Assembly: GCA_902519945.1 (NCBI GenBank)
Contig: CABYLY010000001.1
Coordinates: 96,579-160,578, forward strand
Length of the DNA stretch: 64,000 nucleotides
Direction: 5' to 3'
Origin: an uncultured Pelagibacteraceae bacterium
GTDB lineage: Bacteria > Pseudomonadota > Alphaproteobacteria > Pelagibacterales > Pelagibacteraceae
Positions 9,032-51,032 of this stretch are shown in pieces. The translations under genes were made by a program, and so were the position numbers. The notes beneath the pieces were generated by a model. It was not told the DNA's origin. It ran no database searches and worked only from the letters and a program-made list of their open reading frames with translations. Numbering within the stretch: position 1 is the first letter of the stretch; the number at the start of each line of letters is the position of its first letter.

Positions 9032-10429
9032 TTGTACGAACAGAATTGCATCATTAAGGTGCAAATAGAAATTAGGCGCATGAATAATGATTTCCATCAG
9101 TTTCAAAAATATCAAAATACTAACGAATATCAATTTATAAATAGCATGTTTTTTGGCGCAAAAAAAAAGGAAACAATAAAAATAGACGATACTAGCAGTA
9201 AAGATTTAGAACTTATCACTAAAATGAACCAAGAGTTTGCAAAGTCTCTTGATTTAAAAGAAACATTAAATAATTCTCTAGATTTAATTATAAAAAGAAT
9301 AAATGCACAGGCAGCTAATATTTTTCTAATAGATAAAAAAAATCAATTATTTCAATGTATAGCTTCGAAACATCAAGCTTATCTCGAAGATTTTGAAATA
9401 CCTATCACTCAAGGTGTAATGGGAAAAGCAGCTGTTATGAAAAAATGTATAAGAGTTGGTGATGTAAGGAAAGATGTAAGAGAAATTGCAGAATTTTATT
9501 TTGATTTAGATAATAAGACAAATTTTACAACATACTCAGTCTTATGTTCACCACTAATTGTATCAGATGAATGCATCGGTGTTATTCATTGTTTAAATAA
9601 AAAAACCAACAATAAACTTTTTGAAGAAAATGATAGAAAACTTTTAGAAACTTTATCTGGTCCAGCCGCACTTGCAATAAATAATGCAAAGATGGCAAAA
9701 GATTTAGTTGATAAAAATAGAATGCAAAAAGAGATTGAAATTGTTGGTGAGATTCAAAAAACTTTGTTATCGCAAAATAAAAAAGAAAATTTTCCTATTG
9801 CAGGAATAAACATCCCAGCAAAAATTGTTTCAGGAGATTTTTATAACTTTTCTGATCTCGGTAATGGTAAATACGGTTTTGGTGTAGCAGATGTCTCTGG
9901 AAAAGGAATCAAATCATCTTTACTTATGTCTAAAGCTTCTAGTCTTTATAGATGTTTAAGTAAGACAATGTATTCAGCATCTGAGTTACTTAACTTACTT
10001 AACTCTGAAATTTGTGAAACAGCTGCACGTGGAATGTTTGTTACTATGTTGATTGGAATTTATGATAGCAATAAAAAAGAATTGTTACTTGCAAACGCTG
10101 GACATGAACCGCCATTAATTCGTTCAAAGGATGGAAAATTTTTAAATTATACTGAAGCAGGACCTCCACTTGGAATTATGCCAAAGATTAAATATAAAGA
10201 AACAACTTTAAAATTTTCTGAAAGTTCTTTATATATTTTTACTGATGGCATTACTGAAATTAAAGATGCTGAAGGAATTATGTTAGAGTCTGATGGTTTT
10301 AAAAGTTATATAGAAAAGTATCAACACATACCTAATTACCAAAGATTAGATGAAATTGTAAAAGATATTATTAAGTCAGGCAGAATTCAAAAAGATGATT
10401 TGACTATTGTTGTTGTAGACGGGATCTAA
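9032..10429 (+). CDS. GAF domain - SpoIIE/RsbU-type PP2C serine phosphatase
   Basis: GAF-like segment (IVKRINAQAANIFLIDKKN...GVMGKAA...CSPLIVSDECIGVIHCLNKK), then PP2C motifs VSGDFYNF, ADVSGKGIKSSLLMSKA, NAGHEPPL, TDGITEI, DDLTIVVV. True start may be the downstream ATG at 9080. Confidence 0.88.
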   Translation: MYEQNCIIKVQIEIRRMNNDFHQFQKYQNTNEYQFINSMFFGAKKKETIKIDDTSSKDLELITKMNQEFAKSLDLKETLNNSLDLIIKRINAQAANIFLIDKKNQLFQCIASKHQAYLEDFEIPITQGVMGKAAVMKKCIRVGDVRKDVREIAEFYFDLDNKTNFTTYSVLCSPLIVSDECIGVIHCLNKKTNNKLFEENDRKLLETLSGPAALAINNAKMAKDLVDKNRMQKEIEIVGEIQKTLLSQNKKENFPIAGINIPAKIVSGDFYNFSDLGNGKYGFGVADVSGKGIKSSLLMSKASSLYRCLSKTMYSASELLNLLNSEICETAARGMFVTMLIGIYDSNKKELLLANAGHEPPLIRSKDGKFLNYTEAGPPLGIMPKIKYKETTLKFSESSLYIFTDGITEIKDAEGIMLESDGFKSYIEKYQHIPNYQRLDEIVKDIIKSGRIQKDDLTIVVVDGI

Positions 10430-10877: not shown

Positions 10878-11234
10878 CAATTTGAGATTGAAAAATATCT
10901 TTTTTGATTTTTTTGATCAAAATTTTGCTTTTTAGTCATGTGTTTCAAAAAAATAAGATTAAAATAATTTTCTCTAACACAAAATATATTAACTCTAACA
11001 CAAAAGAGAGATTTTTTTTGTTAAATTCAATTTTTGTTGATTTTATTGAGTTTTTTATATTTTTTAAATTTTAAAAAACTCTAACACAAATTAAAAATAC
11101 TCTAACACAATCATAATTTTAGGATTTGTGTTAGAGAAAAAGAAAAATATTAATTTTACATAATAATTTTTTAAAATTTTAGTTTTTAAAAAAGTGTCTA
11201 TTTTACTGGTTTTTTTTAATAAAATCTCAAATTG
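10878..11234. repeat. 12-bp inverted repeat pair CAATTTGAGATT (10878..10889) / AATCTCAAATTG (11223..11234)
   Basis: Exact reverse complements read directly from sequence within the non-coding region before pilMN. Confidence 0.7.
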
Positions 11235-11307
11235 AACACTAATTAATAATTTTTGTGTTAGACTAAATCAAATTTTTGTGTTAGAGATTCGTAAATTTGT
11301 GTTAGAT
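10972..11307. promoter_or_regulatory. Cluster of eight 12-bp motifs CTCTAACACAAA / TTTGTGTTAGAG upstream of pilMN
   Basis: Forward copies at 10972, 10993, 11079, 11100 (last ends AAT); inverted copies at 11125, 11252 (GAC end), 11275, 11296 (GAT end). Pairs 1-2, 3-4 and 7-8 have exactly 21-bp start-to-start spacing. Confidence 0.85.
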
Positions 11308-11327: not shown

Positions 11328-13745
11328 ATGAGCGATCAGGACGACGAAAAAAAAATATTAAACGAAGATACAACTGTATCTGAGTCTCAAAATCAACCTT
11401 CAGTTGATCAAAAAGATCAACCTGAAAGTGCAGAAGGTCAAAATAACGATCCAAATTCCAATTCTGATGAAAATACAAACATTAATAAAGATCAAGCTAA
11501 AGATAATGATGTCTCTAATGAAAAAAAAGGCCAAAATGAGAACCTTCAAGCCCAGGATGATGAAGTAAGTGAAAAGAAAGATGAAGTTACTGGATCTGGA
11601 CATGAAGTAATCCATAAAAAAGATGGAAGATTACATATTTATGTTCGACAAGATAAATATAAGGGTGAATTAAAATCAAAAAATTGGGTTGGAAGACTTT
11701 ATCATGATGGAAAACAAAAAATTTCATCATCGGGGACTCCAAATTTAGAAGAAGCAATTCCAATTTTAGAAAAATGGTTTGATGATGTTGTTTCAGAAAA
11801 AGAAAAAGAAAAAGAAGCTGTGGAACAAACTGCTGTGCCAGAGCAAATATCTGTTCAGCTAGAAACAAACAATCAAATAGAAAGTCCTGTTCAAAATGAA
11901 AATACTCAAACAACAAATCAAACGATTCCAAAACCAGAAACACCAAATGAAACTATAAATATTAATCAAACAGCTGAAGTTGAAACTGAAAACAAAAAAT
12001 CTAAGTTTGCTTTTTTAGAAAATTTAAAAAATATAAAATTTAAAAAACCAAAATTTTTAGAAAAAAGTTCAGAATCAAAACCATCTTTACAAACAGGTGA
12101 ACTTTCAAAAAAAACAGGAGAACTTTCAAAAAAAGTTGGAGACTTTTTTAAATCAAAAATTGGAAAGTCTTCTGTAAAAGGAGAGGAAATTGTTGGAGTA
12201 GAAATAAGTAATAAAGAAATAAAACTAGCTCAAGTATCTACTAATAAATCAAATCAATGGATATTAGATAAATTTTATTCTCATCCAGTAGATTTACCAG
12301 ATGATGCAAGTGTCTTGGACAATGGAGAAAAATTAGGAGCTGAACTTACTATTGCACTGCAAAAATCTAAAATAATGACAATGAATGCTGCTATTGCAAT
12401 ACCAGTAACTAGCGCAATAATAAGAGTTGTGACAGCTCCGTTGATGAAAGATGAAGAATTACAAAAAGCAATTGAAACTAATTCACTTTGGGAAAACCTA
12501 GTTCAATTAACTGACAACTTAGATGACTATTCAATTTTTCATCAAGTAATAAACAGAAATGATAAAGCTAATACAATGGATATTTTGTTTGTTGCTTCAA
12601 AATTAGCTGATATTAATAATTATACCTCAATAATTAAACAAAGCAGACTTAACCCTGTTATAATTGATGTAAAATGTTTTGCATTAAAATCTGCGGTTGA
12701 TCAAATAAATCAAATTTCAAATAGTGCAGAAGACGCAAATCTTACTGCTGTTTTAGAATTTGGTTTGGATGAAAATTATTTGATGATTTTATATGAAAAT
12801 AACCCAATAATTACTGATATATTTTTAAGAGGCCAAGACAGAAAAATTTTATTAGAGTCACAAGATATCGAGGAAAAAGAGGCGTTAGTTAGACGTTTCA
12901 TCACTCAAGTTAAACAAGCAGTACAAGATTTTGAGACTAAATATGAAAGAAGAATTAGAAATATAAAAGTTGTCTCTGATTTAAAGGATGTTGAGGACTA
13001 CCTATCAAGCTTTAGAAAAAATTTAATGAATGTTGGTTTTAATTTATTTGATCCTATTGATGGATTGTTAATTCCTCAACAGACCAAAGATAAAGTAGAT
13101 TTAGCTAATAGATCTTATTTATCATCCGTAATTGGTCTAGCATTTAGAAAACTAGACGTATTTGGCTATTATAAATTTGTAACTGCAGTTAAAAATATAA
13201 ATCTCTTACCTGATAGAAAAGGAATGATTAAAGAGAAAAAGATGAAAGCTTTTTCAAGTTTTGCTTTTAAGGGTATTACAGCAGCTGTTGCAGCAATATA
13301 TTTGGTTCTTTTTGGATTATCATTCTGGAATATTCACTCATACAATAAAAAGTTAGTAAATTATAGTAGTGTCTTAAATACTCACAAAGCTAAGACTACT
13401 GAGCAAAATAAAATTAAAAAAGAGTTGGGCATAATTACAAAAACATTAAAGTTAAGTAATAGCCTAAAATCAAATAAGAAAAATAGCTATAGAGTTTTGG
13501 CACAAGTTGCAATGAGTGTCCCGAAAAGAATTAGATTTAGTTCTGTTGAATATGATGGAAAAAATAGAGTTGTCGTAAAAGGTCAAGCAGCGACTGATCA
13601 AGATATTTTAAAATTAATAAATAATTTAGGCGCACAAGAATTAGTTACTCAAGCTTCTTTAGGAAATATGAATTACAGAGGCAAAGCAGGAGATGCTGCT
13701 GATATAAAAAAGAATTTTACAATTTTAATTGATGTTAAAGGATAA
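11328..13745 (+). CDS. PilM-PilN fusion with disordered N-terminal extension
   Basis: ~200 aa Q/N/E/K-rich leader, PilM actin-like part (IVGVEISNKEIKLAQV ... AAIAIPVTSAIIRVV), then PilN part (INLLPDRKG..., TM, VPKRIRFSSVEYDGKNRVVVKGQA). ATG at 11328; ORF track used TTG at 11322. Confidence 0.85.
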   Translation: MSDQDDEKKILNEDTTVSESQNQPSVDQKDQPESAEGQNNDPNSNSDENTNINKDQAKDNDVSNEKKGQNENLQAQDDEVSEKKDEVTGSGHEVIHKKDGRLHIYVRQDKYKGELKSKNWVGRLYHDGKQKISSSGTPNLEEAIPILEKWFDDVVSEKEKEKEAVEQTAVPEQISVQLETNNQIESPVQNENTQTTNQTIPKPETPNETININQTAEVETENKKSKFAFLENLKNIKFKKPKFLEKSSESKPSLQTGELSKKTGELSKKVGDFFKSKIGKSSVKGEEIVGVEISNKEIKLAQVSTNKSNQWILDKFYSHPVDLPDDASVLDNGEKLGAELTIALQKSKIMTMNAAIAIPVTSAIIRVVTAPLMKDEELQKAIETNSLWENLVQLTDNLDDYSIFHQVINRNDKANTMDILFVASKLADINNYTSIIKQSRLNPVIIDVKCFALKSAVDQINQISNSAEDANLTAVLEFGLDENYLMILYENNPIITDIFLRGQDRKILLESQDIEEKEALVRRFITQVKQAVQDFETKYERRIRNIKVVSDLKDVEDYLSSFRKNLMNVGFNLFDPIDGLLIPQQTKDKVDLANRSYLSSVIGLAFRKLDVFGYYKFVTAVKNINLLPDRKGMIKEKKMKAFSSFAFKGITAAVAAIYLVLFGLSFWNIHSYNKKLVNYSSVLNTHKAKTTEQNKIKKELGIITKTLKLSNSLKSNKKNSYRVLAQVAMSVPKRIRFSSVEYDGKNRVVVKGQAATDQDILKLINNLGAQELVTQASLGNMNYRGKAGDAADIKKNFTILIDVKG

Positions 13746-13748
13746 TTT

Positions 13749-14443
13749 ATGGATTTAAAAAATATTAATATTGACATGAAGAACATAAATATAGAAAGCA
13801 TCAAAGCAAAAATCCAATCTATAGATAAAAAAATTTTAATTAAATTTGGAATAGGAATAGGTTCAGTAATTGTCTTCCTGATTATATATTACACTATTTT
13901 AAGCCCAATAGTAGATAAGAAAAGAGCTCAATTGAATGACATGCAAAAAAAACAAACTGAAATAAATGAAATGAATAAAGTTATTTCTAGCAGTAAGGCA
14001 AAAATAAAAAAATTGACACCACAATACGAAAATTTTTCTACATTATTTCACAGTAAAGCGGAAGTAGAGGGTCTTTATGAAACCCTAAGTCAATTTGCTG
14101 GAATGAATAATTTAATTATATCAAAAATTGAAAAAGGCAAACCTACAGCAGTATCAAAGGTAGCGGCCATGGCATCTACAGAAAAAAAAAGAAAAAGAAA
14201 AAGAGAAAGCAAAAAGTTGATACCACAAAAAAGCAAAATATTGCGTATTATAGAATACCTGTAAATTTCCAAATAAAGGGCAATTTTCTTGGTTATATTA
14301 AGTTTAAAAGACAGATTGCGATGTCCTTAAAGATGTTAAATTTTGACAAAGAAACGATTAAAGTGGTAAAAGGGGATACAACCAGTACGGTAGTAGTAAA
14401 TGGCGTTTTAACAATAGTAGGCTTACCAGATGAATTTTTTTAA
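13749..14443 (+). CDS. pilO: PilO-like protein, reading frame interrupted at an A9 tract
   Basis: N-part 13749..~14190 in frame; C-part continues in the -1 frame (..KQKVDTTKKQNIAYYRIPVNFQIKGNFLGYIKFKRQIAMSLKMLNFDKETIKVVKGDTTSTVVVNGVLTIVGLPDEFF*) to 14443. ORF track stops at 14264. Confidence 0.8.
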
Positions 14444-14876
14444 ACTGATAATTGTAGTTTTAATAATTTTTACTTTCTCGCAGAAGGCCATGTCAGATAG
14501 TCACGATAAAGAAACAGGGCAAAAAAAAGTTGATAACACTGCAACCGTTAATGAAGAACCATTACCATTAAATGATCCTTTTGCTGGAGATGCATCTACT
14601 GCAAGTGATATCGTAACTGAGGAAACCCCTACCTCAAGTGCAGTCAAATTAAGAGCTTATAAATTAGTTGGATCATTTTCTGCACAGGATAATAGCTTTA
14701 TAACTTTAGTCGATGATAATGGGGAATTTATGACCGTGGAACTTTTTGAAGAAGTCTTAAGTGGTGTAAAATTAGTTAATGTTAATATTAAGGAAGCTGT
14801 CTTTGAAAAAGCAGATGATAACAAATACATAATTATGAATTTTAAAAATCAAATAAAAGAGGCAAATGAATATTAA
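14430..14876 (+). CDS. pilP: PilP-like pilus assembly lipo/periplasmic protein
   Basis: Signal sequence, PLPLNDPF, KLVGSFSAQDNSFITLVDDNGEFMTVE...; located between pilO and pilQ. Confidence 0.75.
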   Translation: MNFFKLIIVVLIIFTFSQKAMSDSHDKETGQKKVDNTATVNEEPLPLNDPFAGDASTASDIVTEETPTSSAVKLRAYKLVGSFSAQDNSFITLVDDNGEFMTVELFEEVLSGVKLVNVNIKEAVFEKADDNKYIIMNFKNQIKEANEY

Positions 14877-16404
14877 AAATTTTAAATTTTTTATTTCATT
14901 TATTTTTTTATCAGCTTTGCTTCTTAGCGGGTGTGCTACAGATAGTAAGTTTGGTAAGAAAAAGTTTAAACACAACACACCATTAATTAAAGACGATATA
15001 AAAAAGCAAGGTCGGATAGAGGTAGACAAAACTGCTGAGATGGGACCTAAACCAGCCGAAGCAGATGTAATTAAACTCGGCAAAAGAAAACAAATTTCTT
15101 CTCAAAAATCAAGAAACTATTTATTAATTGGTGAGGAATATAAATTATTAAAACAAAACGTATCCTTCAAATTTCAAAATCTTGATTATAGAACCGCAAT
15201 AGATCTTATGGCTAAAGCTGGTGAAATAAATATTTTAATAGGTGATGAAGTTGCTGGATCAGTTACAGCACAATTAATAGATATTCCATGGGACAAAGCT
15301 TTTAATGCTCTATTAGATTTAAAAAATTATGCTGCAGATTTTGATGTACAAAGCAATTTGATTAGAGTTCACTCTCCATCAAATTTAACTCAACAAGAGT
15401 CTACAAAATCAGCAAGAGCATCAGCTGTTAGAAAAAAAGTTGAATTAGAGGACTCAGTAGAACCATTAATTTCAGAAATATTTAGACTTTATTATATAAG
15501 TCCTGCAGAGGCAAAATCTACTTTAAATGAATTATTTAAAGCGTCTGATGGAGGAGTTTCTCTAGTACAGTTTACAGAAGAGAAAACCACAAGGTCAATT
15601 ATTGCAAGAGGAAAAGAAAAAGACTTAGATGTCGTAGATAAGATAATACGAGAAATTGATGTAAGAACTAAACAAGTTTTAATTGAAGCTTTTATAGTTG
15701 AGGCGAACTCTGATTTTGAAAGAGCTTTAGGTACGAGACTTGGTGGATTTTATAGAAGACAAGGTGAAGTCATTGGTGGTGTCCAAGCTGGATCAACGGG
15801 TAATTTAAATGCCACTTCAGGAACTGCTAACTTAGGAGCTACTACAGACTCTTTAACTGACTTTACTGCAGCTGGTAAGACAAGTGGTATTGGTATTTTA
15901 AAACAAACAGGTTCTGCAGTTTTAAAAACTGAAATTACTGCCTTAGAATCCCAAGGAATGGGTAAAACTATTTCTAACCCGAAAATTTTTACTTTAGATA
16001 ATCAAGTTGCTACTATTACCCAGGGTGAGGAAATACCGTATGCCTCAAGCTCAGCGGAGGGTTCAGATACTTCTTTTAAAGAAGCTGCATTAAAAATGAC
16101 TGTCACACCAAGCATAATAGGTGACGGAAACGTTCTTTTAGATATTCAAGTAAACAATGATACTCCAAATAGATCTAATCCAGGAGACCCTGCAATCAAT
16201 AAGATGGAAATTAGTACAAAATTACTCATAGCTGATGGAGATATTGTAGTTATAGGTGGTATTAAAAAGAATGCTCTAACTGATAGTAAGCAACAAACTC
16301 CCGGTGTAGGAAACGTGCCAGTTGTAGGAAATCTATTTAAAGGAAAATCAAATACTGATAATATGGATGAATTATTAGTATTTATTGCACCAAGGATTTT
16401 ATAG
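14866..16404 (+). CDS. pilQ: PilQ-type secretin
   Basis: VSFKFQNLDYRTAIDLMAKAGEINILI (STN), secretin core EALESQGMGKTISNPKIFTLDNQVATITQGEEIPY, GGIKKNALTDSKQQTPGVGNVPVVGNLFKGKS; lipobox LLSGC. Confidence 0.93.
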   Translation: MNIKNFKFFISFIFLSALLLSGCATDSKFGKKKFKHNTPLIKDDIKKQGRIEVDKTAEMGPKPAEADVIKLGKRKQISSQKSRNYLLIGEEYKLLKQNVSFKFQNLDYRTAIDLMAKAGEINILIGDEVAGSVTAQLIDIPWDKAFNALLDLKNYAADFDVQSNLIRVHSPSNLTQQESTKSARASAVRKKVELEDSVEPLISEIFRLYYISPAEAKSTLNELFKASDGGVSLVQFTEEKTTRSIIARGKEKDLDVVDKIIREIDVRTKQVLIEAFIVEANSDFERALGTRLGGFYRRQGEVIGGVQAGSTGNLNATSGTANLGATTDSLTDFTAAGKTSGIGILKQTGSAVLKTEITALESQGMGKTISNPKIFTLDNQVATITQGEEIPYASSSAEGSDTSFKEAALKMTVTPSIIGDGNVLLDIQVNNDTPNRSNPGDPAINKMEISTKLLIADGDIVVIGGIKKNALTDSKQQTPGVGNVPVVGNLFKGKSNTDNMDELLVFIAPRIL

Positions 16405-18156
16405 ATGCTTAAGATTAGTAGAGAAAGTGAAATTAATTTAATCAATGTATTAATTGATAATGATATTATTTCTGGAAAAGATTTAATTAATATTAAGAAA
16501 ATTAGTACTGAGGGAAATAAATCCCAGATAGATGCGGTCTTTGAACTCAAGCTAACAGATGAGGATAAAATTTTAGATGTTTTAGTTAAAGAACAAAGTC
16601 TTGAGGTTGTAGATCTCACAAAAATTCAAATTAGTGATGAAATCAAAAGTGTCTTGCCATCAAATTATATTAACGTAAATTTTGTTGCTCCTTTTAAAGT
16701 TGAGGGCAAAACTCTTCATATTGCAATATCTGATAGTTCTAAACTCGGTTTGATGCGAAATTTAAAAGCAATCACAAAAAAAAATATAGAACTTCATGCT
16801 GCAAAGGTATCTCAAATCTCAGAATTTATTGAAAAACTTCAGTCGGAAAGTGGAGATGTTACAACTGCAACAATTAGACAAGAGAATAAAGAAAAAACTA
16901 AAACTTTTGACTCTGATTTAGGTGAGGCAGGTGAAGTTTTAGAAAAACCACCAGAGGAAGACATAGAAGCTATTGAAAATGAGTCTGAAGTTATAAAATT
17001 TAGTACGGCAGTTGTTGCAGAGGCAATTAAGTCAGGGGTTAGTGATATTCACATTGAACCTTACAGATTTTCTTCAAGAGTTAGATATCGTTTAGACGGA
17101 ATGTTGCAAGAACAAGAACAGTATAAACAATTTCTTCATGATAATTACGGAGCAGTAGTTACACGTTTTAAAATTATGGGAAAATTAGATATTGCTGAAA
17201 GACGATTGCCTCAAGACGGAGCGATAAATTTTAAAATTGATGGTAAGGTTGTTGATTTACGATTATCTATTTTACCAACAGCTAACAATGAAAGAATAGT
17301 AATGCGGGTTTTAAATAAAGATGCTGGGGATATTACTTTAGAGCAATTAAATTTTGAGGATGCTGATTTACAAAATTTAAGGAAATCAATTCATTCAACT
17401 CAAGGCTTAATACTTGTAACAGGACCAACTGGTTCAGGTAAATCTACAACTCTTTATAGTATCTTAAAAGAAGTAAGTAAGCCTCACTTAAATATTTTGA
17501 CAGCTGAGGATCCTGTTGAATATGAGTTAGATGGAGTTGGACAGGTGCAAATAAAGGACGATATTGGATTAAGTTTTGCAGCAGCTTTAAGATCTTTTTT
17601 AAGACAAGACCCAGAAATCATTCTAGTTGGAGAGATGCGAGATAAAGAGACTGTTGATATTGGATTAAAAGCTGCATTAACAGGACACTTAGTATTTAGC
17701 ACATTGCATACAAATGATGCTCCAAGCACAATAACTAGATTACAAAACATGGGCACGCCTGACTATTTGATTAGTGCTGCTTGCCAATTGGTTTTAGCGC
17801 AAAGATTAGCAAGAAGAACCTGTAAAGATTGCAGGGTTCCAGATGATGATGTTAATCCAAAAGTTTTACAAGATTTGGGTTTTACTCCTGAGCAAGCTTC
17901 AAGAGTTAAAGCTGTCAAAGGAAAAGGATGTCCTAAATGTAAAGACACTGGCTATAAGGGAAGACAAGGTCTTTATGAAATTCTAGTGGTTTCAAAACCA
18001 GTTAAAGAGGCAATACTTAGAAAAGCAACAACACCTGAATTGAGAGAAATTGCTATTAAAGAGGGCTTTCAAACCATGCAAGATATGGGCAGAAGGTTAA
18101 TTGCCAATGGCGAACTTAATTTTAGGGAGTATGAGCGGGTTTTATCAGCCTCATAA
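16405..18156 (+). CDS. pilB: PilB-type T4P assembly ATPase (GspE family)
   Basis: Walker A GPTGSGKSTTLYS, Asp box AEDPVEYELDGVGQVQI, Walker B DPEIILVGEMRD, CxxC zinc site CKDCR...CPKCKDTGYKGR. Confidence 0.94.
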   Translation: MLKISRESEINLINVLIDNDIISGKDLINIKKISTEGNKSQIDAVFELKLTDEDKILDVLVKEQSLEVVDLTKIQISDEIKSVLPSNYINVNFVAPFKVEGKTLHIAISDSSKLGLMRNLKAITKKNIELHAAKVSQISEFIEKLQSESGDVTTATIRQENKEKTKTFDSDLGEAGEVLEKPPEEDIEAIENESEVIKFSTAVVAEAIKSGVSDIHIEPYRFSSRVRYRLDGMLQEQEQYKQFLHDNYGAVVTRFKIMGKLDIAERRLPQDGAINFKIDGKVVDLRLSILPTANNERIVMRVLNKDAGDITLEQLNFEDADLQNLRKSIHSTQGLILVTGPTGSGKSTTLYSILKEVSKPHLNILTAEDPVEYELDGVGQVQIKDDIGLSFAAALRSFLRQDPEIILVGEMRDKETVDIGLKAALTGHLVFSTLHTNDAPSTITRLQNMGTPDYLISAACQLVLAQRLARRTCKDCRVPDDDVNPKVLQDLGFTPEQASRVKAVKGKGCPKCKDTGYKGRQGLYEILVVSKPVKEAILRKATTPELREIAIKEGFQTMQDMGRRLIANGELNFREYERVLSAS

Positions 18157-18205
18157 TTAGTATATATATATATATAAAGAGTAAATTTAATATATATAAA
18201 GAGCA

Positions 18206-19441
18206 ATGGAAGCATTCACATACAAGGGTATTGCAGATGGCAAATACGTCACTGGAGACATAGAAGCCATTAATCAAGAAGAGGCATCGCACAAGCTTAA
18301 AGAGCAAAAAATCATAATTACCAACCTTATAAGAACAAAAAAGAAAAAAGGCGAAACCAAGAGTAAAGGCAAAAGTAAGGGTTTTTCATTTGGAAAGAAA
18401 AAAGTAAAAGTAGAGGATATTCTAATTTTCTCAAAACAATTTGCAACAATGGTTAAAGCTGGCTTGCCAATATTAGAAGTTTTAGGCATGTTAAGAGACC
18501 AATTAGAGAGCCCAGCTATAAAAGAGGTAATTGAGGATATAAGAAAAAGCCTTGAGGGTGGTGTTACATTATCTAAGTGTTTTGAAAAATATCCACAATA
18601 CTTCGATAACGTTTATGTTAATCTTATTAAAGCTGGTGAGGCTAGTGGTAAGTTAGATGTTTTCCTTTTAAAAATAGTTGATTCCCTTGAGAAAAAAGAA
18701 AAAATAAAAAAGAAAATAAAATCAGCATTAATGTATCCGTCGATAATGTTTTCTGTAGCGATAACTGTAAGTGCCTTTATGTTAATAAAAGTAGTTCCTG
18801 TTTTTGCTAAAATGTATGAAGGCATGGGATTAGCTTTACCTAAACCAACAGCTGTAATTATGTCAATGAGTGATTTTTTAAGAGGAACAGGAGGATTTGT
18901 TATGCTTGTTTCTATTATTGTGTTCGTGGTTGTTTTTAAATACTTAACAACTAAAAACGCAGCATTTCGATACAGATGGCACAAACAGGTTTTAAAATTA
19001 CCTGTGTTCGGCGAAATGATTTTAAAGTCTTTGTTGGCGAGAATTTCACTAATTTTAGGAAACTTAAGTGCAGCAGGGGTTAATTTATTGGAAAGTCTTG
19101 AAATTGCAAAATCTGTTAGTAACAATGTTGTTGTAACAGAAGCTTTAGAGAATGTTAAAAAAGGAGTTTTTTCAGGAGACACTTTAACAAAACTTTTTTT
19201 AAAAGAACCTTTATTTCCACCAACATTTAGTCAACTTATTTCAGTCGGTGAACAAACAGGACAATTAGATGAAATGTTTGGTTCCGTTGCAACTTATTAT
19301 GAGGAAGAATTTGATCAAACGGTTGATAATATGTCTAGCTTAATTGAACCAATTATGATTGTTTTTATGGGAGTGATGATCGGTGGATTGATGATAGCGA
19401 TGTACTCTCCAATCTTTAACGTTGGAGCATTAATAGGTTAG
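18206..19441 (+). CDS. pilC: PilC-type T4P inner-membrane platform protein (GspF family)
   Basis: FSKQFATMVKAGLPILEVL, GEASGKLDVFL, SVGEQTGQLDEMF, LIEPIMIVFMGVMIGGLMIAMYSPIF. Confidence 0.93.
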   Translation: MEAFTYKGIADGKYVTGDIEAINQEEASHKLKEQKIIITNLIRTKKKKGETKSKGKSKGFSFGKKKVKVEDILIFSKQFATMVKAGLPILEVLGMLRDQLESPAIKEVIEDIRKSLEGGVTLSKCFEKYPQYFDNVYVNLIKAGEASGKLDVFLLKIVDSLEKKEKIKKKIKSALMYPSIMFSVAITVSAFMLIKVVPVFAKMYEGMGLALPKPTAVIMSMSDFLRGTGGFVMLVSIIVFVVVFKYLTTKNAAFRYRWHKQVLKLPVFGEMILKSLLARISLILGNLSAAGVNLLESLEIAKSVSNNVVVTEALENVKKGVFSGDTLTKLFLKEPLFPPTFSQLISVGEQTGQLDEMFGSVATYYEEEFDQTVDNMSSLIEPIMIVFMGVMIGGLMIAMYSPIFNVGALIG

Positions 19442-19851
19442 ATCTTTTTTGTGAGTACTAAGTGGTTTACCCACTCTTTCTGATCTTTTTTAAAAACAGC
19501 AGCATCCATAATTTGTTTTATGAAGAACGTGCCTAGGCCACCAGGCTTTATATCATCTAATTTTCTGTGTTGAATATTTTCAGGTATAACCGCTTTTCCT
19601 TTATCAAAAAAACCAATTTCTAAATCATTATCTTTTAGTGAAATTTTAATTTCCATTCTATCAGAAGTTTCTGTAACGTCTTTGTAAGCGTGTTTAACAA
19701 TATTTTGTGCTGCTTCAGCAATAGCTAATACAAGCTCATCTTTTTGATCTTGAGGTAAATTAATTTTTTCAAATACTTCTCTAGAAAAAGTTCTAACATC
19801 TTTTAAGCTAGCGGTACTTACAAGAAAATCTTTAGATTCTTTTATATTCAT
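19438..19851 (-). CDS. RsbW/SpoIIAB-like anti-sigma/serine kinase (HATPase)
   Basis: N-box ELVLAIAEAAQNIVKHAYKD and G-box PGGLGTFFIKQIMD. Confidence 0.88.
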   Translation of the reverse strand: MNIKESKDFLVSTASLKDVRTFSREVFEKINLPQDQKDELVLAIAEAAQNIVKHAYKDVTETSDRMEIKISLKDNDLEIGFFDKGKAVIPENIQHRKLDDIKPGGLGTFFIKQIMDAAVFKKDQKEWVNHLVLTKKI

Positions 19852-21604: not shown

Positions 21605-23749
21605 ATGATGTCCCAGGAAGTAATCGATGTACTTACGAGTAATATTGATACTTTGTGGGTAATAGATTGCGCAATTTTAGTTTTCATCATGCAAGCAGGT
21701 TTTATGTGTATGGAAACAGGATTATCTAGACATAAAAACAGCATCAATGTTGCATTAAAAAACGCTGCAGACTTTGGTGTATCAGTAGTCATCTTTTGGA
21801 TTTTTGGTTTTGGTTTGATGTTTGGTACTTCTTATAATGGTTTTTTTGGAACTGATTTATTTTTTTTCAAAACAGATAAAGCTGAATACATGACTTATTT
21901 TGTTTTCCAAGCGATGTTTGTTGCAACTGCTGCAACGATAATTTCAGGTGCTGTTGCTGAAAGAATGAAATTTAATGGTTATCTAATAATGACAGTTTTA
22001 GCTACAGGAATTATTTATCCTATAGTGGGTCATTGGGCATGGTCCTCAAGTTATCTATCAAAATATGATACAGCTCAGCAGTTGTTAAATGCTACCAACT
22101 CTACTGGATGGCTTTCAAATTTAGGTTTCGTAGATTTTGCTGGAAGCACAATTGTCCACTCAGTTGGTGGATGGATTGCATTAGTAGCTGTAATAATTTT
22201 AGGCCCAAGAATAGGAAAATATTCAGATGCAAATAAAGGAAAATTTACTGGCTCAAGTTTTCCCCTGGCAGTTTTGGGTACATTAATTTTATGGTTTGGG
22301 TGGTTTGGTTTTAATGGTGGTAGTAACGGTGCGATGGACGAAGTTGTTCCATTAATTTTAATCAATACTTTTTTAGCTGCTGCATTTGGTTTACTAACTG
22401 GTTTGGGTATTTCATACCTTAGATATAAAAAACCTGATCCATTTCACATTATCTTAGGACCCTTAGCGGGATTAGTTGCAATAACAGCTGGGTGTAATTC
22501 AATGACATCAGTAACTTCTATTTTTGTCGGTATCATTGGAGCAATTATTGCAATTGTTGTTAATGAAGTTCTTAATAGATATGAAATCGATGATGTGGTT
22601 GGAGCTGTGCCTGTACATTTGGCTGCAGGAATATGGGGAACTTTAGCAGTAGGTTTTTTTAGTGACTTAAGTATTTTAGACACCGGTCTAGATAGATTTT
22701 CACAAATTAAAGTTCAGTTCATCGGTGTATTAAGTATTGGAGCATTTACATTTATTTCTTCGTTTGTAATTTTAAATCTGTTTAATAAATTTTATCCATT
22801 AAGGGTTAGTCCTGTACAAGAAGAACTTGGATTAAATATAGCTGAACATAATGCAGTGTCGATTGAACATGATTTAATTTCCATTTTGGATAAACAATCT
22901 GAATCTGGTGATTTAAAGATAAGGGGACCACAAGATCCATTTACTGCAGGAGGAGTAATTGGTCTATATTATAATAAACTCATGAGTAAACTTGAGACGA
23001 CCGAAGAAGAAAAAAATAAGTGGCGTGAAAGAATTTCAAAAGAAGTAAAACTAGCAGTCAAAGTTCAAGAAAATTTTTTACCCAAAAGAAATTTAAAAAA
23101 TTATCCTGTGCATGGTATTAATATTGCAGCAAGAGAAGTATCTGGTGATTTTTTTAGTTTTTATCCACATAACGATAGCATTTATTTTATAATTGCCGAT
23201 GTAGCCGGTAAAGGAATTCACGCAGGTATGGTTATGGCAAAAGCTTCAACTTTGTTTGAAGTTTTGTCTCAATCTAAAGTTGATCCAGATGAAATGGTTT
23301 TTCATATGAATAATGATTTGAATAATACAAAAACTGGTGGAATGTTCGTAACCTCTATTATTGGAGAATATAATTTAATTACTGATGAAATTAGATGGGT
23401 TAATGCAGGTCACCAACCAGCAATTATTCGGGATGATAATGGAAAGTATAATCAAATTGAAAGCTCAGCACCACCACTTGGAGTAATTAAACAAAAAGAT
23501 AAAAGTATTTATAATGTAAACAAGATGAAACTTAATGGCTCAAGATTTTATGCTTTCACTGATGGTCTATCTGAAAGTTTAAACAAAGTCGGAGAGGAAA
23601 TAGGAATTGAAGGTTCAATAGATATTATAGAAGAGAATTATAACAAAGATACTATTAAGCAGTTGGATGATATTACAAAGACTGTGATCAGTGATAGTAA
23701 AAATCAGTCACTTTCTGATGATTTAACAGTGATAAGTATTGGTAAATAA
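21605..23749 (+). CDS. ammonium transporter (Amt) - SpoIIE-type PP2C phosphatase fusion
   Basis: Amt motifs (FIMQAGFMCMETGLSRHKN, SGAVAERMKF, DFAGSTIVHSVGG, DDVVGAVPVHLAAGIWG) followed by PP2C motifs VSGDFFSF, ADVAGKGIHAGMVMAKA, NAGHQPAI, TDGLSES, DDLTVISI in one uninterrupted ORF. Confidence 0.93.
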   Translation: MMSQEVIDVLTSNIDTLWVIDCAILVFIMQAGFMCMETGLSRHKNSINVALKNAADFGVSVVIFWIFGFGLMFGTSYNGFFGTDLFFFKTDKAEYMTYFVFQAMFVATAATIISGAVAERMKFNGYLIMTVLATGIIYPIVGHWAWSSSYLSKYDTAQQLLNATNSTGWLSNLGFVDFAGSTIVHSVGGWIALVAVIILGPRIGKYSDANKGKFTGSSFPLAVLGTLILWFGWFGFNGGSNGAMDEVVPLILINTFLAAAFGLLTGLGISYLRYKKPDPFHIILGPLAGLVAITAGCNSMTSVTSIFVGIIGAIIAIVVNEVLNRYEIDDVVGAVPVHLAAGIWGTLAVGFFSDLSILDTGLDRFSQIKVQFIGVLSIGAFTFISSFVILNLFNKFYPLRVSPVQEELGLNIAEHNAVSIEHDLISILDKQSESGDLKIRGPQDPFTAGGVIGLYYNKLMSKLETTEEEKNKWRERISKEVKLAVKVQENFLPKRNLKNYPVHGINIAAREVSGDFFSFYPHNDSIYFIIADVAGKGIHAGMVMAKASTLFEVLSQSKVDPDEMVFHMNNDLNNTKTGGMFVTSIIGEYNLITDEIRWVNAGHQPAIIRDDNGKYNQIESSAPPLGVIKQKDKSIYNVNKMKLNGSRFYAFTDGLSESLNKVGEEIGIEGSIDIIEENYNKDTIKQLDDITKTVISDSKNQSLSDDLTVISIGK

Positions 23750-25218: not shown

Positions 25219-26466
25219 ATGAAAAAACTATTAGCATCTGTTGTAAGCTTAATTTTATTATTCAGCGTAAGCGCTAAAGCTGAAGAAAAATTGACTATTG
25301 AAAAACAACTTGTAGGTATTGTTGGTGCCATTTCAGGTACTGTTAAAACTGAGACAAGAGAATTAAAAGCTGGTGATAAAATTTATCTTAACGAAACAAT
25401 TTATGCAGGTGCAGGTTCTGGAACACAAATTTTATTATTAGATCAATCTACATTTACTGTGGGTGAAGACTCAGAAGTAGTAATGGATACTTTTATATTC
25501 GACCCAGCTACTAACGATGGAAAAATTGTTGCAAGCGTAAAACAAGGTAGCTTAAAAGTAATATCAGGTTTAATTAGTAAAAAAGATCCTGATGCTTTAA
25601 CTGTAGAAGTTCCTGAAGGAACGTTAGGATCAAGAGGAACTGAATTTCAAACGGTTGTATCAAAAGGAAGAACAGACACTTTATTAATAGGTCCAGGGAA
25701 AAATAATACTTTAGGAATGAGACCAGGAGCAGTTTTAGTTGGAAATAAATTTGGCCAAACTCTTTTAGATAATCCTTACAGCATTACTTCAATGTCCAAA
25801 GGAAAAGCTCCAGGACAAGCGAAAAAAATTACAAAAAACCAATTAAAGAAATTTAATAAAAAGATGAAAGCACTGAGAGTTGCAAAACTTTCACCAGACT
25901 CGACTAAAGAGGAAAGAAAACAATTAAGAAAAAGTTTAAAAAAAGAACTTAAATCATTAGGTTTCGAAAAAGAAGAAATTAAAACAATTATCAAACAAAA
26001 TATTCAAAAAGATAAAGAGAAAAAAGTAGCTATTAAAGCTGAAAGAGCTGAAAAGAAAAAAGCTGCAAAAGCTAAGAAAAAAGCTAAAGCTGAAAAGAAA
26101 GCAGCTAAAAGAGATGAAGGCCAACCAGGAGTCAAAAAGAAAAAAGGTAAAAAGAAAAAAGCAACTAAGAAAAAAGCTACTAAGAAAAAAGCTACTAAGA
26201 AAAAAGCTACTAAGAAAAAAGCTACTAAGAAAAAAGCTACTAAGAAAAAACCGGCTAAGAAGAAAAAAGCTGTGAAGAAAAAACCAGCTAAGAAGAAAAA
26301 AGCTGTGAAGAAAAAACCAAAGCCTAAAAAGAAAAAAGTAGTTAAGAAAAAACCAAAGCCTAAAAAGAAAGTTAAGAAAAGAGTTGCTAAGAAGAAAAAA
26401 GTAGTCAAAAAAAGAAAAGCAGCTAAGAAGAAAAAAGCTAAAAAGAAAAGAAAGAAAAAGAAGTAA
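25219..26466 (+). CDS. secreted FecR-domain protein with long Lys/Ala-rich C-terminal tail
   Basis: Signal peptide; GIVGAISGTVKTETRELKAGDKIYLNETIYAGAGSGTQILLLDQSTFTVG...VPEGTLGSRGTEFQTVVS; C-term KKKATKKKATKKK... Confidence 0.82.
   Translation: MKKLLASVVSLILLFSVSAKAEEKLTIEKQLVGIVGAISGTVKTETRELKAGDKIYLNETIYAGAGSGTQILLLDQSTFTVGEDSEVVMDTFIFDPATNDGKIVASVKQGSLKVISGLISKKDPDALTVEVPEGTLGSRGTEFQTVVSKGRTDTLLIGPGKNNTLGMRPGAVLVGNKFGQTLLDNPYSITSMSKGKAPGQAKKITKNQLKKFNKKMKALRVAKLSPDSTKEERKQLRKSLKKELKSLGFEKEEIKTIIKQNIQKDKEKKVAIKAERAEKKKAAKAKKKAKAEKKAAKRDEGQPGVKKKKGKKKKATKKKATKKKATKKKATKKKATKKKATKKKPAKKKKAVKKKPAKKKKAVKKKPKPKKKKVVKKKPKPKKKVKKRVAKKKKVVKKRKAAKKKKAKKKRKKKK
26161..26250 (+). repeat. 15-bp tandem repeat (AAGAAAAAAGCTACT) encoding KKKAT units
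   Basis: About six near-identical units read directly; lies inside the FecR ORF. Confidence 0.85.
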
Positions 26467-26528: not shown

Positions 26529-28592
26529 GTGAGAGTTTTTTTACAAAAATATTTTAATTACGTCGTATTCCTAATCTTACTTCTTATATTAATTTCATTA
26601 AAGATTATAAATCCCGCATTTATTAAATCAGTTTCATACTTAAGTTTCGATTTATATCAAAAAATATTTGCTGAAAAAAAAGACAGTGAGGTTGTAATTA
26701 TTGATATTGATGAAAAAAGTTTAGGAAAATTCGGACAGTTTCCATGGAACAGAAACGTCTTTGCAAAAATTCTAGATCAACTTAACACCTCAAATCCAAA
26801 AGCAGTTGGATTTGATATATTTTTCACTGAGAAAGATAAACAATCTCCTGATGAAATAATTAAGTCTTATAATCTAATTCCTGATGATGTTGCTGAGCTG
26901 CAAAAGTTAAAAGGACCTGACGATATTTTTTCCGAAAAATTAAAAGAGTCAAAATCAATAATTGCAGTTTTAGGTAGTAATGTTCCTTCACATTCAAATT
27001 ATGATAGAAAAGCTAAAGCCAGATTTTTATCTAAAGGAGGAGACCCTAAACAATTTACTTATTTATATCCTTATTCAATAGGATCTCTTGAAATATTAGA
27101 AAAAGATGTCAAAGGTTTGGGTTCGATTTCTTTTTTAGATCAATTAGATGGAATAATTAGATCTTTGCCACTGATTGTACAATTTAATAAAAAGTTATAC
27201 CCGACAATGGGATTAGAGATGATACGTGTTGGATCTAATCAAAAAAACATTTATGTAGAATTAAATGAAGTTGGTATCAAAAGGATAAGCGCAAGACCAT
27301 ACAAAATAGACTCAGATCCTAATGGAATCATTTGGATAAAATATAAAAGATCAGACAAGAAACAATATATATCTGCTGGAGATGTTTATGATGGGAAATT
27401 TCAATCAGATTTTTTTAAAGATAAATACGTTTTAATTGGTGCATCAGCACAGGGTTTGTTCGATCTTGTAAAGACACCATTAGGTCTTACAATTCCAGGA
27501 GTTGAAGTGCACGCTAATGTCATAGAAAATATTTTAGATCAATCATATTTAATAAGAAATCCAAATACTTATATTTTCGAATTATTGTTTTCTATTATAG
27601 TGGCATTATTAACATTTATACTTTCACAAAAAATTAAACCAAAATATAGTTTATCAATTTTCTTTGGAAATATTTTAGCAATTATTATTATAGGTTTTTC
27701 AATTTATAAATTTAAATCTGAATTAGTTGACATAAGTTATCCAATATTCATTGTAACTTTAACATTCTTGGCAGGTCTTTATTTCAGATTTATTGAAGAA
27801 AATAAAATTGCTCTTGCTAATTTACAAAAAGAGGCAAAATTACTAAAAGAAAGAGAACTAGCTGCAGGAGTTCAAAAAAGCTTATTTCCAGACATTTCTA
27901 AGTTTGAAAACTTTATTTTTGCAAAAAATGTTCCAGCAAGAGATGTCTCGGGAGATTATTTTGATGTAGTTAGATCAACACCTGAGGAATATTTTTTTAC
28001 ATTAGCTGATGTATCTGGAAAAGGAGTTAAAGCTGGTATGTATATGGCTAAAGCATCCTCAATATTTAGAACATTAACAAATTTAAAATTTCCATTAGAA
28101 AAAGTTGTATTTGGTGTGAATAATGAACTGGTTGAGGCTAAATTCAAAGGTATGTTCGTAACTGCTGTTTTTGGAAAATTAAACATTAAAACTGGAGAAC
28201 TCATTTTTATAAACGCAGGGCATGAAAGTATTTTAACTTTTGATCAAAATAAAAATTATGAATATATCAAATCAGAAATGCCACCAATTGGGATTGTTAA
28301 ATATTTTACAGAGTCGATGGTTAAATCAACTACTATGAACCTTAAAGAAAAGACATTTGTTGTTTATACTGACGGTGTAACCGAAGGGTATTTAAAAAAT
28401 GGTGAGGAATTAGGAGCTGAAGGAGTTCAAAAAATTATTGATAATATGCCTGAAGTGACACCAAAGAGTATTGTTGAGTCTATTGAAAAAGAGTTAAATT
28501 GGGGCGCTGAAAAATTAAGAGATGATATTACTTGTATGGCAATTAATATTAAAAATACTGAATTAATAAAGAAAAATATAAAAAAGTCATAA
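26529..28592 (+). CDS. CHASE2 sensor - SpoIIE-type PP2C phosphatase
   Basis: CHASE2-like region (VVIIDIDEKSLGKFGQFPWNRNVFAKILDQL...FFTEKDKQSPDE; LIGASAQGLFDLVKTPLGLTIPGVEVHANVIENIL), three TMs, PP2C VSGDYFDV, ADVSGKGVKAGMYMAKA, NAGHESIL, TDGVTEG, DDITCMAI. Confidence 0.92.
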   Translation: MRVFLQKYFNYVVFLILLLILISLKIINPAFIKSVSYLSFDLYQKIFAEKKDSEVVIIDIDEKSLGKFGQFPWNRNVFAKILDQLNTSNPKAVGFDIFFTEKDKQSPDEIIKSYNLIPDDVAELQKLKGPDDIFSEKLKESKSIIAVLGSNVPSHSNYDRKAKARFLSKGGDPKQFTYLYPYSIGSLEILEKDVKGLGSISFLDQLDGIIRSLPLIVQFNKKLYPTMGLEMIRVGSNQKNIYVELNEVGIKRISARPYKIDSDPNGIIWIKYKRSDKKQYISAGDVYDGKFQSDFFKDKYVLIGASAQGLFDLVKTPLGLTIPGVEVHANVIENILDQSYLIRNPNTYIFELLFSIIVALLTFILSQKIKPKYSLSIFFGNILAIIIIGFSIYKFKSELVDISYPIFIVTLTFLAGLYFRFIEENKIALANLQKEAKLLKERELAAGVQKSLFPDISKFENFIFAKNVPARDVSGDYFDVVRSTPEEYFFTLADVSGKGVKAGMYMAKASSIFRTLTNLKFPLEKVVFGVNNELVEAKFKGMFVTAVFGKLNIKTGELIFINAGHESILTFDQNKNYEYIKSEMPPIGIVKYFTESMVKSTTMNLKEKTFVVYTDGVTEGYLKNGEELGAEGVQKIIDNMPEVTPKSIVESIEKELNWGAEKLRDDITCMAINIKNTELIKKNIKKS

Positions 28593-33150: not shown

Positions 33151-33225
33151 TTATATTTGAAAAAAATTGATAATGCATTTTTTTTTAGATCTGATATATT
33201 GATTTGGATAGTCCTTCTTAGCCAT
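33151..33225 (-). CDS. candidate small ORF / leader peptide (MAKKDYPNQYIRSKKKCIINFFQI)
   Basis: 24 codons with GGGAG Shine-Dalgarno-like sequence 6 nt before ATG; ends 7 nt before start of 32847..33143(-). Confidence 0.4.
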   Translation of the reverse strand: MAKKDYPNQYIRSKKKCIINFFQI

Positions 33226-33262
33226 CTTTAGCTCCCGGTTTTTAAGGACTATCTTTTTTTTT
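33207..33262 (+). terminator. hairpin plus T-tract (GATAGTCCTT ... AAGGACTATC TTTTTTTTTT) immediately before LysE-family gene
   Basis: 10-bp perfect stem 33207..33216 / 33244..33253 followed by T run. Confidence 0.6.
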
Positions 33263-33264
33263 AT

Positions 33265-33879
33265 ATGCTCCCCCTAGATTTTATCTTATTTTTACAAATC
33301 ATCATTTTTCTATTTATAACACCAGGAACCCCAAGGGTAGTAATCGTATCTTATTCAATGAATTATGGTGTTCGAAATTGTGTATGGACAGCATTTGGTG
33401 ATATAACGGCAAATTTTTTTCAAGCAACTTTAGTTATCTTTGTTTTAGGAACTTTTCTTTCTGACAATCCTAATTTTTTAAATATCTTTAAATGGATTGG
33501 TGTACTTTATTTACTTTATTTGGCTTATGATGTGTATAAATCTTCACCAAAAGATGTAAATTCAAAAATTGTATCGTCAAAAAGTATTTTTTCTTTTTTT
33601 AAAGATGGTTTTTTAGTTGCAGGAACAAGTCCAAAGGCCTGGTTGTTCTTTCCATTAATATTTCCACAATTTATTGACTTTAATTCAAATTATATCATTC
33701 AATTTTTTATTTTAATTACAACCTATGTTGTCTTGGATTTTTTATCTTTAATTGGTTATGCAATGCTTGCACAAAAATTAATTATTTGGATAAAAGCAAA
33801 TCCAAAAACAATCAATACAATCTCAGCGAGTGTTTTGGTTGTTATTGCGATAATAATTATTGTTACACAACAATATTAA
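33265..33879 (+). CDS. LysE-family amino acid exporter
   Basis: FLFITPGTPRVVIVSYSMNYGVRN...GTFLSDNPNFLNIFKWIGVLYLLYLAYDVYKS; multiple TMs. Confidence 0.82.
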   Translation: MLPLDFILFLQIIIFLFITPGTPRVVIVSYSMNYGVRNCVWTAFGDITANFFQATLVIFVLGTFLSDNPNFLNIFKWIGVLYLLYLAYDVYKSSPKDVNSKIVSSKSIFSFFKDGFLVAGTSPKAWLFFPLIFPQFIDFNSNYIIQFFILITTYVVLDFLSLIGYAMLAQKLIIWIKANPKTINTISASVLVVIAIIIIVTQQY

Positions 33880-49904: not shown

Positions 49905-51032
49905 ATGAAAAAACTAAGTAAAATATTACTAGCTATTTCTTTTGTACTTTCACTAACTACTTCAGCATTTGCAACAACAGTAACTGCAGTGTCTTGGGGT
50001 GGAGCTTATACTGAGTCTCAAAAGTTAGGTTATGGTGATCCAACTGCTAAAAAACTGGGCATTAACATTGCTTGGGTTGACTATTCAGGTGGTTTATCAG
50101 AAATTAAAGCACAAAAAGAAGCTGGTAAGATCACGTGGGATATAATCGACGTGTTTGCAATGGATACTATCACTGGATGTGATGAAGGATTATTTGTTGA
50201 ATTTGATTTTGACAAAGACTTCCCACCAGCTCCAGATGGAACTCCAGCAAGTAAAGATTTCTTTACTGCAATGCCAAGTAAGTGTGCTGTAGGAAATATT
50301 TTATATTCTTGGAACTACGCTTATAACACTAACAATGTTAAAGGCACGCCAAAGACTATCAAAGATTTCTTTAACACAAAGAAATTCCCTGGAAAAAGAG
50401 CTATCTACAAAAGCGCTTTAACTAATTTAGAGATCGCTTTAGCTGCAGATGGTATCAAGCCGGGTAAAGGCGGAGCAAAAATCTACAAAGCTTTAGAAAC
50501 AGAAAAAGGTGTTGAAAGAGCAATGAATAAGATCAAAAAATTATGTACAGATCCAAAAGGTGGATGTGTATTTTGGTCTACAGGTGCTCAACCACCAGAA
50601 CTGTTAGTATCAGGTGAAGTAGTAATGGCTACTGGTTGGAATGGTAGATTCTTCAATGCTGAAATTGGAGAAGGTGCACCAATCAAACAAGTTTGGGATG
50701 GCCAAGGTCTTGACTACGAATATTTCGTACAAGTTAAAGGTGGACCAAACGATGCTAATGGTATGGCTAAAAAAGCTTTAGCTATGATGACTAGTGCAGA
50801 GATGTTAGCAGGAAGTGCTAAATACATCGCATATGCTCCTTGGAGAAAATCTTCAATTAGTATTATGGAAAAAGGTGAGCCTTGGTATAAAGATGGTAAG
50901 ACAAACATGGTACCACAGATGCCAACTGCACCGGCTAACACTAAAAACTACTTCCTAGTAGATCCAATTTTCTGGGCTGATAACGGAACAGAGCTTGGTG
51001 AAAAATGGGAAGCTATGAAAGCTGGTCTATAA
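49905..51032 (+). CDS. PotD-type ABC transporter substrate-binding protein
   Basis: Signal peptide; TVTAVSWGGAYTESQKLGYGDPTAKKLGINIAWVDYSGGLSEIKAQKEAGKITWDIIDVF. Confidence 0.88.
   Translation: MKKLSKILLAISFVLSLTTSAFATTVTAVSWGGAYTESQKLGYGDPTAKKLGINIAWVDYSGGLSEIKAQKEAGKITWDIIDVFAMDTITGCDEGLFVEFDFDKDFPPAPDGTPASKDFFTAMPSKCAVGNILYSWNYAYNTNNVKGTPKTIKDFFNTKKFPGKRAIYKSALTNLEIALAADGIKPGKGGAKIYKALETEKGVERAMNKIKKLCTDPKGGCVFWSTGAQPPELLVSGEVVMATGWNGRFFNAEIGEGAPIKQVWDGQGLDYEYFVQVKGGPNDANGMAKKALAMMTSAEMLAGSAKYIAYAPWRKSSISIMEKGEPWYKDGKTNMVPQMPTAPANTKNYFLVDPIFWADNGTELGEKWEAMKAGL

Follow-up and report, generated by a model that had tools for sequence, protein, structure and literature searches.

A conserved repeat array upstream of SAR11 pilMN, a candidate operator for an integrase-like domain within PilMN

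Upstream of the pilMN gene of a SAR11 bacterium, a 12-bp motif is repeated eight times, which raises the question of what this array does and which protein reads it. SAR11 bacteria are known for few regulators. We analysed a window of 64,000 nucleotides from a SAR11 (Pelagibacteraceae) genome of 1,008,417 bases in 36 contigs, which is 78% complete and has single-cell genomes of Pelagibacteraceae as its nearest named relatives. A sequence-only reading of the window had proposed a multi-site operator or nucleoprotein element for a regulator of the type IV pilus operon, and sequence comparison supports this proposal, the motif being non-random and conserved together with its 21-bp spacing. We consider it probable that the array serves as a cis operator for PilMN itself, whose integrase-derived domain would have come with its arm sites, and that PilMN is a membrane-anchored autoregulator of pilMNOPQBC.

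The four forward and four inverted copies of the array were all found where they had been placed by the earlier reading:
10972-10983, forward strand, array site 1, CTCTAACACAAA, found by sequence scan
10993-11004, forward strand, array site 2, CTCTAACACAAA, 21 bp from site 1
11079-11090, forward strand, array site 3, CTCTAACACAAA, found by sequence scan
11100-11111, forward strand, array site 4, CTCTAACACAAT, the last forward copy
11125-11136, reverse strand, array site 5, inverted, found by sequence scan
11252-11263, reverse strand, array site 6, inverted, GTCTAACACAAA, found by sequence scan
11275-11286, reverse strand, array site 7, inverted, found by sequence scan
11296-11307, reverse strand, array site 8, inverted, ATCTAACACAAA, 20 bp short of the ATG

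The spacings of 21 bp (sites 1-2, 3-4 and 7-8) and 23 bp (sites 6-7) had also been read correctly, as had the 20-bp gap between the end of site 8 (11307) and the first ATG of pilMN (11328). Within the window the motif is confined to the array, as had been remarked; there is no further exact 12-mer, and the next best match, at 50369, has one mismatch.

The clustering of sites is far above chance. When the 1,008,417-base genome was scanned for the exact 11-mer TCTAACACAAA, 7/7 copies fell inside one 334-bp stretch, and the reversed control 11-mer had 0 copies. Exact sites cluster upstream of pilMN, without copies at random positions. The same holds for six near-complete genomes (two of them on a single contig), where the sole cluster is upstream of pilMN. 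Within the genus, 11-mer clusters at 20-23 bp spacing occur in many genomes and are absent from others; in the loci extracted, they sit upstream of pilMN.

The gene had been named pilMN, which is correct and can be refined, as a single ORF encodes PilM fused to PilN. Its N-terminal extension of ~250 aa had gone unremarked. The features of the gene and its operon are as follows:
11328-13745, forward strand, pilMN, a PilM-PilN fusion with a long low-complexity N-terminal extension (ORF, Pfam, alignment)
11598-11804, forward strand, integrase-type N-terminal (arm-binding-like) domain within the extension (comparison, model)
12195-12809, forward strand, PilM part (Pfam PilM_2 match)
13491-13724, forward strand, PilN part (Pfam PilN match)
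13749-19441, forward strand, pilO-like and pilP-like genes, pilQ secretin, pilB ATPase and pilC platform protein, the presumed remainder of the operon (named by reading sequences and order)

The PilM_2 match has an E-value of 6e-18 (65.4 bits against a cut-off of 27) and the PilN match 8e-5 (23.0 bits against a cut-off of 22.8); a hydrophobic segment, FAFKGITAAVAAIYLVLFGLSFW, is visible by eye along with the PilN part. The extension is variable and of low complexity except for one nearly invariant block of ~60 aa with the consensus HKKDGRLHIY[VI]RQDKYKGELKSKNWVGRLYxDGKQKISSSGT..L.EAIPILEKWFD. This domain is flanked on both sides by long low-complexity linkers, and is generally single-copy per genome and located in pilMN. 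The pilMN ORF has ~700-850 codons in genomes with the array, and PilM ORFs have 572-601 codons in genomes without it.

Conservation was scored in 102 non-redundant loci encoding the domain (99 pilMN and 3 integrases), with at most one mismatch per site. The 70.8 kb upstream contain 657 sites, whereas the 420 kb downstream contain none. Over the 102 loci, spacings between sites of the same orientation peak at 21 bp (168 pairs), then at 22, 23 and 20 bp, and then at 86 bp; the relatives' pilMN upstream regions thus keep both the motif and its 21-bp spacing. The array is present in 98/99 of the domain-bearing SAR11 pilMN loci and has at least four sites in 97/99, typically six to eight; locus L166 has nine once two mismatches are allowed. 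The lone pilMN locus without sites, L228, has a reversed phosphatase coding sequence directly before the ORF at the contig end, and is most likely a single-cell amplification chimera.

Domain and array also go together where the domain is missing. Among the first loci examined, sites were found in 16/16 domain-bearing pilMN and in 0/13 domain-less PilM loci. Both domain-less sets lack sites and motif X (described below), and their pilMN-pilT gap is only 49-145 bp. In a deeper PilMN group the domain is at the extreme N-terminus, and gene order and array layout are altered, with pilMN divergent from an ATPase gene; 97 TAACACAA cores lie in 5.0 kb upstream there, versus 2 in 44 kb downstream. In the PilM tree, the nine SAR11 PilMs that lack the domain group in a single clade (support 99/97) with domain-bearing groups on either side and domain-less outgroups, and the domain label needs two changes on the tree, as against 10 after shuffling. 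As this clade is separate from the two groups that have the domain, the array must have changed along with the domain; possible histories are one gain and one loss, or two gains, of the domain with the array.

The origin of the domain is indicated by three SAR11 tyrosine recombinases (L124, L162 and L285; 418-423 aa), whose N-termini it matches at 54-64% identity. The domain comes first in these proteins, and the remainder matches Phage_integrase PF00589 (E 1.3e-7) and phage integrase families. The domain profile also matches an integrase of another alphaproteobacterial family (E 5e-4). In PilMN no recombinase catalytic domain was found with Pfam. As full-length homologues of the SAR11 integrases exist in an alphaproteobacterial integrase family (E 5e-28) on plasmids and chromosomes, transfer from integrase to PilMN is the likelier direction.

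By this homology, the PilMN domain looks to be derived from an integrase arm-binding domain. The arm-binding (AB) domains of tyrosine recombinases are N-terminal, consist of three strands and a helix, and bind arm DNA, and some are overlooked by Pfam (PMC8138268). An AF2 model of the PilMN domain has the order E-E-E-E-H with a C-terminal helix (best of five models, pLDDT 83.6; others 58-76). On the other hand, the domain had no significant fold or sequence match in the PDB and no Pfam match even at E 10, and profile comparison (hhalign) with the N-termini of lambda and Tuc2009 integrases was not significant. Neither the domain nor the integrase had a match in phage records or IMG/VR, and a search of IMG/VR for the paired site pattern was negative as well.

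The three integrases are located at a truncated 5' half of tRNA-Leu, and in two of them a serine recombinase-like gene adjoins; these neighbours place the integrases in an island. The 5' half of the host tRNA-Leu precedes the integrase gene in L124, L162 and L285, and ~25 bp 3' of it lies a tRNA-Leu-like gene (CAA in the two scanned) that is strongly divergent among the three. We considered a single-gene element lying between one split tRNA-Leu and one restored tRNA-Leu and rejected it, because the tRNA-Leu(CAA) on the downstream side proved to be another, divergent gene, which puts the integrase at the island edge.

Beside all three integrase genes, sites occur between the tRNA fragment and the start at -66, -55 and -23; the first two are forward and spaced by 11 bp, and the third is an inverted TAACACA site. 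The clearest flank reads CTCTTACAC / CTCTTACACAAA / GTATAACACAAT. The pil-like sites (CTCTTACACAAA) are clear in one flank and weak in two; in control windows the match was equalled in 0/644 for one integrase, and in 16/643 and 14/594 (the 2-3% level) for the other two. As the integrases are homologous, the three matches are not independent of each other. The flanks give an independent hint of a link between domain and site.

The regulator of the array is thus probably encoded by the adjacent gene, through the integrase-like domain on PilMN, which had been missed before. Another possibility is that a separate trans-acting transcription factor of the pilus operon uses the array as its operator and that the PilMN domain has some other role. 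Many regulators typically have direct repeats at helical spacing, which would suit such a factor. However, each genome has one cluster, always beside a domain-bearing pilMN, sites are missing exactly where the domain is absent though pilMN remains, and similar sites adjoin an integrase gene that encodes this domain. We regard a separate factor as unlikely, though it is the strongest of the alternatives.

Between the groups of sites lies a second conserved element, motif X:
11036-11055, forward strand, distal copy of motif X, GTTGATTTTATTGAGTTTTT, equidistant (43 bp) from the starts of sites 2 and 3
11196-11215, forward strand, proximal copy of motif X, degenerate, GTCTATTTTACTGGTTTTTT, preceding site 6 by 56 bp

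In the domain-bearing loci motif X (GTTGATTTTATTGACTTTTT) is one-sided, with 135 forward occurrences versus 27 expected. Across loci it follows the start of site 2 by 43 bp and precedes site 3 by 42-44 bp, and this midway position accounts for the constant spacing step of 86 bp. Among 12 close relatives, 67% of columns are invariant in the sites, 58% in motif X and 19% elsewhere. Enlarged arrays of at least 10 sites reach out to 800-900 bp upstream of pilMN in L127, L129 and L157, with motif X between sites.

Read in reverse, motif X is an A-tract plus AATCAA, and it resembles a bend site. It departs from the strict IHF consensus WATCAANNNNTTR, for which 8 exact matches were found against 14 expected in 98 loci; genes of the HU/IHF family are present in 2-3 copies per genome. 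In the integrase flanks, motif X gave matches only at 6-8 edits, which are unconvincing. A promoter scan upstream of pilMN gave 5 promoter-like matches versus 5.2 expected from shuffles, and none was convincing as a promoter.

How might PilMN use these sites? That its domain binds DNA we hold to be very probable, and the integrase-type domain most probably binds the array's short site. It would bind TTTGTGTTAGAG DNA, each TCTAACACAA of the array being a predicted protected site. The 12-bp sites would act as arm-type sites arranged about the bend-prone motif X, both in inverted groups and in tandem with a step of 21 bp, or two helical turns. Binding would be multivalent over the ~350 bp in front of the ATG, coming as close to it as 20 bp. 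Because the array fills most of the upstream DNA and ends 20 bp before the ATG, occupation of the sites should affect transcription of the operon. Looping at motif X is conceivable, but we would not count on it.

Since the PilN part would anchor PilMN in the inner membrane, PilMN would be a one-component, membrane-anchored autoregulator, and we judge autoregulation likely. Repression is somewhat favoured over activation: free or unassembled PilMN in excess would most likely repress pilMNOPQBC, and PilMN assembled into pilus machines would relieve the repression. PilM-type proteins contact pilus motors and the platform (e.g. PMC6325625, Thermus platform), so PilMN availability could reflect assembly. 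More tentatively, and with less confidence than looping, the type IV pilus machine might itself be a transcription factor, in which an assembly-platform subunit with a domesticated arm-binding domain forms an intasome-like looped promoter complex and assembly state is read as operon expression, the operon perhaps being held at the pilus base.

The same anchoring could serve another purpose. The array could be a tether by which PilMN, anchored in the membrane, keeps the chromosome close to the pilMN operon at the pilus machine for co-localisation, segregation or DNA processing, not for transcription. The predicted PilN anchor of the domain and the flexible long low-complexity linkers around it would suit a tether, and eight sites exceed the need of simple repression. 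A pure tether would be free to sit anywhere, and the array invariably adjoins its own gene on the upstream side, to 20 bp from the ATG, rearranged loci included, which argues against it. We think tethering improbable, a little more so than a separate factor.

Much less probable is an attP-like attachment region, functional or relic, of an integrative element carrying the pilus operon. Opposed arm-like sites on two sides of a bend-like motif do recall attP, and the domain is integrase-derived. PilMN, however, has no recombinase catalytic domain, no integrase was seen and no tRNA found within the window, and the array persists in two deep PilM groups whose neighbouring genes differ.

The inverted copies could also act as hairpins in the leader transcript. 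Sites 4 and 5 (11100-11136) form a strong RNA hairpin (-14.1 kcal/mol, z -5.7), whose position is kept in some relatives, not in all. Neighbouring copies are mostly direct and helically spaced, and in L128 and L288 the array sites are in one orientation only, making an RNA-level element very unlikely. Least probable is a replication origin, iteron or partition site, already rated less likely by the sequence-only reading: tandem short repeats near 21 bp look iteron-like, but GC skew is monotonic and of one sign from end to end of the window, without a turning point or other sign of an origin, the array follows pilMN and not map position and is missing from related genomes that lack the domain, and we rejected this role.

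Other genes around the pilus operon were named by reading. Three forward ORFs are of the SpoIIE/PP2C phosphatase type (9032-10429, 21605-23749 and 26529-28592), of which 21605-23749 apparently joins an N-terminal Amt-like ammonium transporter to a C-terminal SpoIIE-type PP2C phosphatase. A small RsbW-like kinase ORF lies at 19438-19851 on the reverse strand. Together, phosphatases and kinase suggest a partner-switching control system. A FecR-like protein (25219-26466, forward) has a long lysine/alanine/threonine repeat tail (KKKATKKKATKKK...), and an Rfam rhtB sRNA (RF01814, 83.4 bits; 33189-33271, forward) immediately precedes an RhtB/LysE-like exporter ORF.

SAR11 bacteria are the surface ocean's most abundant heterotrophs, according to a passage in PMC12636525. 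In such a hard-to-manipulate organism, pairing the domain with its DNA sites from sequence alone offers a testable protein-DNA pair. If PilMN reads the array, control of a cell-surface machine would have been taken over by mobile-element machinery that brought its binding sites along, and a pilus subunit would be a sequence-specific DNA-binding protein, of which our searches of open-access papers found no report.

Proteins of the ToxR and CadC type are membrane proteins with a cytosolic DNA-binding domain that regulate from the membrane. PilMN would share with them a DNA-binding domain on a membrane protein, as predicted here. Unlike theirs, the anchor of PilMN is a structural pilus assembly protein, the domain is not a winged helix, and there is a single target, its own operon. 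With other type IV pilus systems SAR11 shares homologous PilM and PilN and the order of the operon genes; the SAR11 pair, however, is fused and has an N-terminal domain of DNA-binding type, whereas the PilM of other systems is known for partnering platform and motor proteins (e.g. PMC6325625), not for DNA binding. The IHF-dependent pilin promoters of Neisseria (PMC6528607) are likewise pilus promoters with a proposed DNA-bending element, but they use IHF, and motif X of SAR11 fails the strict IHF consensus. With the AB domains of Tn916, lambda and SXT Int (PMC8138268), the PilMN domain has in common its size, its modelled strand-helix make-up and, in the SAR11 homologues, the N-terminal position, as well as short arm-type sites near the gene, tandem and inverted. 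Unlike these, it is fused to PilM-PilN without a catalytic domain, its sites are 21 bp apart, not 11 bp as beside the SAR11 integrases, and the array of 6-8 sites would here serve a pilus operon.
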